DNA from: Candidatus Moranbacteria bacterium RIFOXYB1_FULL_43_19
GTDB lineage: Bacteria; Patescibacteriota; Minisyncoccia; Moranbacterales; UBA11712
DNA: 47,932 bases
Assembly: GCA_001784875.1 (NCBI GenBank)
Contig: MFSH01000015.1
Location: forward strand, 1-47,932
Direction: 5' to 3'
A program made the position numbers and the translations under genes. Under the pieces are notes generated by a model. The model did not search any database and was not told where the DNA came from. It was given only the letters and a program-made list of their open reading frames with translations. Below, piece after piece: positions 13,386-16,391 of the stretch. Position 1 is the first letter of the stretch; every line of letters begins with the position of its first letter.

Positions 13386-14702
13386 ATGTCCAAAAACCAC
13401 AAAAGACTAAAAAACATATGTCATTCCCTTCTTCATCTCACCATCCGTTCTCCTCACGAATGGACGGTGGTTTTTTTGCTGGCCCTTCGCAATTTGCGGG
13501 TGAACAAGCTTCGCACGGCGCTCACCGTTCTTGGGATCGTCATCGGGATCACGTCAGTCATCATTGTCATGGCCGGCGGCGCAGGACTCAAAAACTATGT
13601 CATGGGTCAGGTGGAAGTTTTTGGGACGGACTATATCCAGGTCGAAGTGAAGGTGCCTGGTGTTTCGGAAACTTCTTCAGAAAATATTTCCGGGCGGGGA
13701 ACAGGTTTGGCTATCACCACCCTCAAAGTGAAAGATGCGGAAGCGGTGGCAAAAATTCCCAACGTGAAGCTCTGGAGCGCCGGGAATATCGATCAGGAAC
13801 TGGTGAGTTATTCCAGTGTGAATAAGCGCGTCATCCTTTTCGGAGTGAATCCGAGCTATACCGAAATTGACCGCCAAATTGTGCTGGACGAGGGGTCATT
13901 TTTCACCGAAGGGGACGAGTCGGGGGTGGCCCAGGTGGCAGTGATCGGCTCGGGTGTCAAAAAAAGTTTTTTTGGGGAAGGAGAAGCGGTTGGGAAAAAT
14001 ATCAAAATAAAAAGTCAGAGTTATCGGGTCATCGGCGTGGTCCGTGAGCGGGGGGCAGCCGGCTTTTTCAATTTTGACGACGCGATTTATGTTCCTTTGG
14101 AAACGCTTAACAAAAAACTGATGGGAATCGACTATGTCCAGTTCATTACTTTCAAAGTAAAAGATACCGCGCGCATTGAGGAGACAGCCGTTGATATCCG
14201 CGATGTTATGCGCCAGGAGCACGATATCACTGACCCCAGCAAGGATGATTTTGTGGTCATGTCAGCGGCGGAAGGAAAGGCGATGATCGACAAAGTTTTT
14301 GGAACGATAAATTATCTTCTTCTCGCTCTCACCTCAATTTCCCTCATTGTCGGAGGAGTGGGGATTATGAATGTGATGTACGTGGCGGTCACCGAGCGGA
14401 CCCGTGAAATTGGACTGCGCAAGGCGGTCGGAGCCTCGAGCGGGGGGATTCTGCGGCAGTTTCTTTTTGAAGCTATTATTGTCACTTTGCTGGGTGGCGC
14501 GGTAGGAATAGTTTTCGGTGTGGCGGCGACCTATCTTCTCAACAATTTTTTGGTCCGGCTGGGATTTCTTCTTCAGTTTTCCGTTCCGGTGGGCACAATT
14601 TTGGTGGCTGTCGGCTTTTCAGCCGCCATCGGGATTATTTTCGGTATATATCCGGCCTGGAAAGCGTCCCAGCTTTCTCCTATTGAGGCGCTGCGGAAAT
14701 AG
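13386..14702 (+). CDS. MacB/FtsX-type ABC transporter permease 2
   Basis: 438 aa with the same architecture as the preceding gene: LRTALTVLGIVIGITSVIIVMAGG helix, MacB_PCD domain (VAVIGSGVKKSFFGEGEAVGKNIKIKSQSYRVIGVVRERG), three C-terminal helices with TERTREIGLRKAVGASSGGILRQFLFEA and the end GIYPAWKASQLSPIEALRK. The first 27 residues are unlike the family and are encoded around a hairpin at 13440-13472 followed by a T7 tract; GTG at 13467 (VVFLLALRNLRVNK) is an alternative, more conventional start. AAGGATG at 13381 gives weak Shine-Dalgarno support to the upstream start. Confidence 0.92.
   Translation: MSKNHKRLKNICHSLLHLTIRSPHEWTVVFLLALRNLRVNKLRTALTVLGIVIGITSVIIVMAGGAGLKNYVMGQVEVFGTDYIQVEVKVPGVSETSSENISGRGTGLAITTLKVKDAEAVAKIPNVKLWSAGNIDQELVSYSSVNKRVILFGVNPSYTEIDRQIVLDEGSFFTEGDESGVAQVAVIGSGVKKSFFGEGEAVGKNIKIKSQSYRVIGVVRERGAAGFFNFDDAIYVPLETLNKKLMGIDYVQFITFKVKDTARIEETAVDIRDVMRQEHDITDPSKDDFVVMSAAEGKAMIDKVFGTINYLLLALTSISLIVGGVGIMNVMYVAVTERTREIGLRKAVGASSGGILRQFLFEAIIVTLLGGAVGIVFGVAATYLLNNFLVRLGFLLQFSVPVGTILVAVGFSAAIGIIFGIYPAWKASQLSPIEALRK
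13440..13472. repeat. Hairpin with T-tract at the start of permease 2
   Basis: TCCGTTC pairs perfectly with GAATGGA, and the flanking ACCA/TGGT extends it across a 3-base bulge; TTTTTTT follows. The right half CGAATGGACGGT resembles the right half of palindrome copy B (CGAATGACAGGT). It may be a decayed palindrome or an attenuator. Confidence 0.45.
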
Positions 14703-15035
14703 ACTGCTATCCAAAGATCCGATCTTAGGATAATTATGCCCAATTAAGGTCTCGAGAAAATAAAAAACACCCATAAATTGGGAATTTTGCGCTTTCCTAC
14801 AAAAAAACCGCCTCATCAAATTATATTTCTATAATTATCTTCAACATCCTTTCTGCTATACCTGCCAATCACTCCTTCCCCCTTAAGAGCAACCGACAGA
14901 CACAAAAATTACATTTATAAACTCCTAGAGGCGGCCCATATAAATGGTTCAGCCATACATTTTTTTTGTTTTTAGCTTCTTCTGCCTATTTCTACGCAAA
15001 AGGAAGAATTTTCATTCAATTTGCGGATTATTTAT
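14703..15035. other. Gene-poor stretch after the transporter
   Basis: No convincing gene. CCCAATT...AATTGGG (14740-14784) can form a hairpin. On the minus strand a short open frame near 14820-14900, preceded by AAGGGGGAAGGA, would encode about 17 residues (VIGRYSRKDVEDNYRNII) and may be a remnant. Otherwise I see nothing in it. Confidence 0.4.
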
Positions 15036-15136
15036 AAAAAAAAACCTTACAAGTTGTAAGGAAGGGGTGGCTGGCGGCCGTTTTAATGGCTAGTTTTGAT
15101 TCTAGAAAATTGATACTGAACGAACGCCAGCCCTGG
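15036..15136 (-). ncRNA. Candidate small RNA of about 95-100 nt
   Basis: On the minus strand a possible promoter (CGGACA-16-TAATAT, about 15145-15172) precedes GGCTGGCG, which pairs perfectly with CGCCAGCC 49 bases later (15132-15125 with 15076-15069). An independent terminator CCTTAC-AACTT-GTAAGG with a T9 tract follows (15061-15036). There is no open frame of any length inside. It does not match SRP RNA, 6S RNA or tmRNA landmarks that I can check by eye. Confidence 0.4.
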
Positions 15137-15211
15137 AATATTATCCGGTTGAGATTTTTTGTCCGAGAATTTTCTCGGGTCTAAGAAAAGAACAGAAGCT
15201 TTTAGAATAAG

Positions 15212-15291
15212 GCGGAATCGCGGACAAGAGAGATTGGGTCGTCATTGAACTGGGAGGTTGGACTTCCAAAGCCCCAATGTCCGCGATCCGC
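15212..15291. repeat. Long stem-loop overlapping a start codon
   Basis: GCGGAATCGCGGACA (15212-15226) pairs with TGTCCGCGATCCGC (15278-15291) with one bulged A; inside, ATTGGG pairs with CCCCAAT and GGAGG with CTTCC. The right arm begins in the ATG at 15277, so folding would hide that start. Confidence 0.55.
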
Positions 15292-15507
15292 AGGCATCAC
15301 ACCAGAGAAAGGGAGTCCTCTAGTAGTTTTGATTATGGCAGGATTTCGACGTTTGTCAAGAAAAATGGAGGGATCGCCACCACATCGGATCCAGCTTCGC
15401 TTGAAAGGCTTTTCTCATACGCCTATGAGAACTGGCTTTTTTATGCGGTCCCGATGAATACTGCCTGTAATAAATATTTTTATTTCAAAAGTTTATTTTT
15501 TAAATAA
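15277..15507 (+). CDS. Hypothetical protein, start uncertain (76 aa or longer)
   Basis: The frame is open from 15211 to the stop at 15505-15507 and looks protein-like throughout: upstream of the ATG it reads DWVVIELGGWTSKAP, after it RHHTRERESSSSFDYGRISTFVKKNGG, DPASLERLFSYAYENWLFYAV. ATG 15277 is the only ATG near the N-terminus but has no Shine-Dalgarno and lies in the arm of a stem-loop, so this could be the tail of a decayed gene. No family recognised. Confidence 0.35.
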   Translation: MSAIRRHHTRERESSSSFDYGRISTFVKKNGGIATTSDPASLERLFSYAYENWLFYAVPMNTACNKYFYFKSLFFK

Positions 15508-15535
15508 AAAAACAGCAGAACCGGATTTCTGCTGC
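15505..15535 (-). terminator. Intrinsic terminator of the GC-rich unit
   Basis: On the minus strand CAGCAGAAATCCGGTTCTGCTG is followed by seven Ts. Confidence 0.8.
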
Positions 15536-16118
15536 GGAAAAACTTGAACTCCCAAAATGTTTAATAGGTTGCCTCGTTATCCGGCGAGGCGAGAAAAAAA
15601 GAACAAAATCACTTTTTGGGAAAGGGGCGGGGCGGCTCCGGGATGGGGGGAGATCCCAGCGGCCGCACCGCCTAACTGCACCTACAACCGCCGCGAGGGT
15701 GAGGGCCTGACCTTCCGCGGAAAGGTCAGGTCGACGGTAGTGGCCGGTATGGAACCGCCGGTGTTGGGGCGTTTTGGACCCACCGATCTCATGGGATCGG
15801 ACGCTGACACCGCGCGCCAAGGCGATTTCCCGGGAAAGATCTTTTTCGGGGATTAGCCTCCGGCCCATTAGCCACCCTGCGGGATACTACGCTCAATCTC
15901 GTCAGCTCCCTCACGCGGGCCGCTGCCGAAGATTGCCTGCGCCTAGCCAGGATCCTCTGTCCTGTGGCACCGGGTGATGGTCATGGGGCACCTCCGTAGC
16001 CACCGCTTTTAGCGGCGGGCCGGTCAGGCGGCCGCAATGGCCGGGGTTAATAAACTCTCCTTTCACGATGTCAGGGCCAGCGGAAAGTCCGCAAGCCCGC
16101 GCCGGGGGCTCACCCGGG

Positions 16119-16292
16119 TCAGGTGGTGGCGGACCCCAGGGCGCCGATGCTGTAAAATAAATCCAGGCTGTGGCAGGTGCCGGTCCCGGGGGCGACAGTC
16201 ATCATTTGTGCCACCCGGCTGGCCGCGGTGATTCTGGTGCCTTCATTCAAATTGCGGCTCTTGCCGCAGGTTCGGAAAAAAACGTTGGGCAT
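16119..16292 (-). CDS. Small hypothetical protein in the GC-rich unit (57 aa)
   Basis: ATG at 16292 is preceded by AAGAAGGAGACTCGCC, an excellent Shine-Dalgarno at 7 bases. Codons strongly prefer G or C in the third position, unlike neighbouring genes. The product starts MPNVFFRTCGKSRNLNEGTR, with two Cys, and ends IGALGSATT. No family recognised. It is the first frame after the promoter. Confidence 0.42.
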   Translation of the reverse strand: MPNVFFRTCGKSRNLNEGTRITAASRVAQMMTVAPGTGTCHSLDLFYSIGALGSATT

Positions 16293-16362
16293 GGCGAGTC
16301 TCCTTCTTCGGGTTGATTGTTAAACTTGCTCCTTTTCTCGCACATTGCTATTTTGTGCACCT

Positions 16363-16391
16363 AGCGTAGCAGAAGGAGAGGTATTTGTCAA
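16363..16391 (-). promoter_or_regulatory. Promoter of the GC-rich unit
   Basis: On the minus strand TTGACA (16391-16386), 17-bp spacer, TACGCT (16368-16363). Confidence 0.7.

Follow-up and report, generated by a model that had tools for sequence, protein, structure and literature searches.

A probable lineage-specific large structured noncoding RNA in an intergenic region of a Candidatus Moranbacteria genome

The locus examined here raises the question of what is specified by a GC-rich stretch that lies between a promoter and a terminator on the minus strand of the window, that is, the whole 47,932-nt stretch of DNA that was analysed. The host, Candidatus Moranbacteria bacterium RIFOXYB1_FULL_43_19 (G000), has a genome of ~1.0 Mb in 23 contigs, and the unit is located on contig C15. 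A sequence-only reading had proposed a GC-rich minus-strand transcription unit bounded by a strong promoter and a clean terminator. The unit itself proved to be real: the -35 element starts at 16391, the terminator ends at 15505, and the GC content is 0.64 (~64%) at 15751-16250 compared with 0.37-0.50 (37-50%) on either side. Long GC-rich intergenic stretches are a recognised hallmark of structured RNAs (DIMPL, PMC8723152). The predicted noncoding transcript of ~850 nt (15505..16356, minus strand) is designated RNA-A.

The RNA-A promoter (16363..16391, minus strand) consists of TTGACA at 16391-16386, a 17-nt spacer, and an extended -10 element, TG-C-TACGCT, at 16371-16363, and the transcription start is expected at ~16356-16354. 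The arrangement TTGACA-17-TACGCT was thus as described, and it is kept in G001, the genome of a relative described below; the -10 hexamer (16368-16363) is weak by itself (3/6), and the promoter was missed by an automatic scan for this reason. The layout in G001 is the same (TTGACA-17-TATGCT with the TG), yet 7 of the 17 spacer bases have changed. The intrinsic terminator (15505..15535, minus strand), with a 9-bp stem at 15535-15512, a T7 tract, and a fold z of -5.0, is present as had been reported; its stem is kept in G001, with the loop inverted (ATCCGG / CCGGAT). When RNA-A was folded as a single strand, z scores of -3.6 in the window and -3.4 in G001 were obtained against dinucleotide shuffles, which is weak evidence when taken alone because the opposite strand also reached -3.0. 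We infer the transcription of RNA-A from conserved signals only.

The unit is flanked by a MacB-like permease gene on one side and a DUF4012 gene on the other. On the minus strand 3' of RNA-A there is no gene; a second unit, RNA-B, comes next, followed by the convergent permease. Because no same-strand gene lies downstream, a cis-acting leader is unlikely and RNA-A would be expected to act in trans. The order permease / RNA-B / RNA-A / DUF4012 is common to G000 and G001, but in G001 two further elements, RNA-C and a Y1-transposase-like gene, separate RNA-B from the permease.

The region from 14.7 to 16.6 kb was scanned with Rfam 15, including the models of RNase P, tmRNA, OLE, GOLLD, ROOL, HEARO, and group I/II introns. 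There was no match at the gathering threshold and none with a meaningful E-value, and the same was true of G001; a match to a known RNA family, which would have refuted the earlier proposal, was thus not found, and this agrees with the earlier view that the unit is none of the standard RNAs whose landmarks had been sought. Lines with low E-values for a microRNA, STnc410, and TD-1 were far under the gathering scores and were regarded as chance. RNA-A is not the RNase P RNA, which the genome has elsewhere (G000:C15:95511-95975, 82 bits, E 8e-26). As for tmRNA, ARAGORN gave no match for RNA-A, and G001, which has RNA-A, also has a normal tmRNA elsewhere. A full tmRNA was not found in G000 (best 33 bits), while seven family members scored >115 bits; an assembly gap is the probable reason. 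RNA-A does not explain this absence because G001 has both RNAs. CUGACGA and GUGAAA motifs reminiscent of a hammerhead were inspected by eye, and neither a fitting stem arrangement nor an Rfam match was found. A diversity-generating retroelement template and a CRISPR or TIGR guide array were also rejected, as the genome has no second copy of RNA-A and the region no tandem family.

Relatives of RNA-A were searched for in the genus, the family, and the order, and at class level in 384 genomes drawn evenly. A single one was found, in Candidatus Moranbacteria GW2011_GWC2_40_12 (G001), which belongs to the same genus and carries the unit at the same locus. The class draw did not contain G001, and the window itself was the sole match there. 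When an exact 22-mer from the core of RNA-A was compared with 84,980 species genomes, G001 was the sole match; similarly, R1, a 187-nt covariance model built on the core, matched only the two known copies among 131 genomes of the order. RNA-A was not found in the rest of the order, where DNA matches of 20-35 nt in other genera were considered to be chance; the four that were examined in full were isolated and had dissimilar flanks. DNA searches of phages and plasmids gave no match, and none was found in IMG/VR with core patterns. The literature on CPR noncoding RNA yielded nothing directly relevant. RNA-A is absent from G002, the third genus member (86% complete), in which ~130 nt separates RNA-B from DUF4012. 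The DUF4012 gene of G002 is closer to that of G000 (79% nucleotide identity) than is that of G001 (75%), and hence RNA-A was probably lost or replaced in G002.

The alignment of RNA-A between G000 and G001 is a mosaic of conserved and diverged stretches. The 5' part is ~50-87% identical, and an 84-nt segment (16153..16236, minus strand) is missing in G001 through insertion or deletion. It is followed by an ultra-conserved core (15905..16123, minus strand), in which 207 of 218 aligned bases (95%) are identical. The stretch at 15874-15735 is 43-73% identical, its lowest part being near the silent-site level, and beyond it lie conserved islands at 15730-15706 and 15620-15571 and the terminator. 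The neighbouring genes are 75-80% identical between the two genomes, with 43-47% identity at fourfold-degenerate sites. Selection on the core is thus much stronger than that on the flanking proteins. The unit had also been suspected to be a peptide-encoding transcript acquired from elsewhere. Such an origin was not borne out: since the variable parts have diverged as much as silent sites, recent transfer of the whole unit is disfavoured, and together with the genomic position shared with G001 this points to vertical inheritance inside the genus as the probable origin of RNA-A.

Folding of the two-sequence alignment of the whole RNA-A with RNAalifold gave z scores of -5.0 (global shuffle) and -4.3 (local column shuffle), and the 3' part alone gave -4.8. 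Flanking-gene controls gave +0.1, -1.4, and -3.0; with one coding sequence as low as -3.0, the test does not discriminate cleanly and the excess is suggestive. The clearest single element, helix P1, would close the molecule over 13 bp: its 5' strand, GCGAGAAAAGGAG (16329..16341, minus strand), pairs with its 3' strand, CTTTTTTTCTCGC (15589..15601, minus strand), and all 13 pairs are also formed by the G001 strands, GCGATAGGAAAAG/CTTTTTTTATCGC. Five of the 13 pairs have changed between the genomes, one of them on both sides, and an equal helix (>=10 bp with >=4 changed pairs) was obtained in 1 of 60 local column shuffles. When folding was left unconstrained, P1 did not dominate, with a probability of <=0.20 in the window and 0.27-0.30 in G001. 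The hairpin GCCTCG...CGAGGC (15571..15590, minus strand) comes directly after P1. A further hairpin, CCTGACCTTTCCGCGGAAGGTCAGG (15706..15730, minus strand), forms a conserved island in the variable part; in G001 one of its pairs has become G-U and one is broken. Covariance analysis had been suggested as a check on the unit. P1 has its five changed pairs; the core by itself did not exceed shuffled sequences in fold stability (z -1.5 for the alignment and -0.1 to -1.8 locally). Covariation is not visible in the core because the core is too conserved, and for RNA-A as a whole it is thin, since it comes from two sequences. P1 and the overall folding of RNA-A are therefore likely.

RNA-B (15030..15359, minus strand), of ~290 nt, has its own promoter, TTGACA at 15359 and CATAAT ending at 15332, which is strong (11/12 consensus), and its own terminator at 15061-15045. 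Its fold z is -4.9, it is kept in all three genus members, and its 3' arm, GGCTGGCGTTCGTTCAG...CGGCCGCCAGCC, is almost invariant. RNA-C is a conserved stretch of ~650 nt (L012 4830-5480, plus strand; L024 3600-4210, minus strand) that is present in G001 and G002 and absent from the window. In its consensus fold 12 pairs have changed on both sides, and its covariation support is better than that of RNA-A. The evidence for folding is stronger for both RNA-B and RNA-C than for RNA-A. Neither RNA-B nor RNA-C had an Rfam match. Both resemble RNA-A in strand, in their place in the intergenic island, in having own or likely own signals, and in being genus-restricted and Rfam-negative, but they have no sequence similarity to it.

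The equivalent intergenic site of the sister genus is taken up by different GC-rich units, likewise on the minus strand, which contain orphan frames of 141 aa and 191 aa (L025 2737-3162; L026 2367-2942). The two frames are weakly alike, show no similarity to RNA-A, and have no family match; a search of the order at E 0.001 gave nothing further that resembled the 141-aa frame, and IMG/VR contained no relative of the 191-aa frame. The site therefore seems to act as an island that gathers GC-rich units bounded by terminators and exchanges them over time. A palindrome like CCTAAGATCNGATCTTAGG, possibly a REP-like element, was noted at window 14704-14735, L012 ~6192, L025 ~2530-2560, and L024 3595-3615. 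In the window and in both G001 and G002 it immediately follows the permease gene; it is present several times in G004 and adjoins a Y1-transposase-like gene in G001 and G004. The second MacB-like permease (window 13386-14702 and orthologues) shows 80-90% amino acid identity among G000, G001, and G004, and G002 and G003 have a different allele (67% amino acid identity). These alleles are discordant with the adjoining DUF4012 gene, which suggests recombination at the site.

RNA-A could instead be a messenger that specifies one or several very short peptides (a 57/28-aa frame at 16292, a 13-aa frame at ~15983), its GC-rich remainder being a structured UTR that controls translation. Synonymous and nonsynonymous differences between G000 and G001 were counted in six frames over every gap-free alignment block, and no synonymous excess was found in any frame of either strand. 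The short frames with ribosome-binding-like sites do exist, as had been stated, and two such sites with ATG, AAGGAG-8-ATG and GGAGG-6-ATG, are conserved in both genomes. The 57-aa open frame (16119..16292, minus strand), with AAGGAG 8 nt upstream, and its 28-aa counterpart in G001 have the same beginning, the same TGA stop, and the same kept ribosome-binding-like site, and the mutually similar orphan frames at the sister-genus site also speak for a peptide product. Conservation as peptides, however, failed. Over the first 16 codons of the 57-aa frame, the codon-substitution check that had been proposed gave nine nonsynonymous differences and not one synonymous, and this frame, halved in G001, was judged not to be a conserved peptide. 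A 51-aa frame is shifted in G001 by a 1-nt deletion inside a core hairpin loop, and a 122-aa frame falls in the fastest-changing part of RNA-A. Moreover, no RNA-A frame had a match in Pfam or NCBIfam, and the sister-genus frames are dissimilar to those of RNA-A. The proposal of a peptide-encoding transcript was accordingly not upheld, and we consider a peptide messenger unlikely.

The high GC content and the several overlapping short frames might also point to a decayed protein gene or a sequencing artefact. This is scarcely credible, because an independent assembly has the unit at the same place with a 95% identical core, and decay would not keep the core better than functioning neighbour genes; conservation refutes it. 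A frameshifted conserved protein gene was looked for and was not found, in line with the first impression that the unit is not an ordinary gene. It is very unlikely that the region is a DNA-level element, such as a recombination or integration hot spot or a mobile remnant, and not an RNA gene. The intergenic content does differ in every genus, the permease allele differs in G002 and G003, and a Y1-transposase-like gene is found at the site in two relatives, but conservation extends to the promoter and terminator in their own right, and there are neither bounding repeats nor other genome copies. A base-pairing regulatory RNA of the long small-RNA type, with the core conserved through pairing with target messages, is improbable. 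A free-standing unit with promoter and terminator would suit it, as would the conserved A/U-rich GUGAAAGGAGAGUUUAUUAACC between core hairpins, which looks accessible. Against it, neither strand of the genome has another site that is notably similar, and near-invariance over 218 nt far exceeds what a seed region needs.

We therefore regard RNA-A, with some reserve, as probably a free-standing, trans-acting, large structured noncoding RNA that is lineage-specific and unlisted in Rfam 15. The suggestion of a large structured RNA class had been among the earlier proposals, and it is favoured by the conserved promoter and terminator, the core without a codon pattern, the changed pairs of P1, the alignment folding, the negative Rfam scan, and the position beside RNA-B and, in the relatives, RNA-C. 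Transcription of RNA-A would start at a promoter of its own and stop at its intrinsic terminator, and the product would act in trans as a stable folded RNA, in which the long-range helix P1 would join both ends and enclose a variable periphery and the near-invariant core. Since the core is held almost invariant, it may bind a specific partner or perform a specific reaction, and RNA-A might belong to a ribonucleoprotein as its RNA component or form an assembly of RNA alone. We infer its stability, its trans action, and the existence of a partner from these features. A wider proposal can be made only tentatively and with low probability, namely that RNA-A, RNA-B, and RNA-C make up an island in a CPR bacterium where new large structured RNAs turn over rapidly, with RNA-A as a new RNA of the ornate type that works as a catalyst, a scaffold, or an RNA-only assembly.

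Bacteria have few large structured noncoding RNAs, and new classes have tended to bring unexpected biochemistry to light. If the preferred interpretation, a large structured noncoding RNA, is true, three such RNAs apparently lie side by side in a genome of ~1 Mb that should have little DNA to spare. Such RNAs would then originate and be replaced within individual genera, and their narrow distribution would be the reason why covariance libraries overlook them. The core sequence is defined well enough to be sought in metagenomes and metatranscriptomes.

RNA-A would be comparable with RNase P RNA and tmRNA as a stable structured RNA of several hundred nucleotides, although their models do not match it. 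Closer counterparts may be GOLLD, ROOL, and OLE, large "ornate" RNAs of bacteria and phages, among which GOLLD members are often >800 nt (PMC12286853). RNA-A differs from these three in that it has no covariance-model match and no shared sequence was found, and in that it lies neither beside tRNAs nor in a phage and is confined to one CPR genus. It is nevertheless like them in its length class, in being free-standing and probably highly structured, in belonging with RNAs of mostly unknown function, and in being composed of one conserved and one less conserved part.
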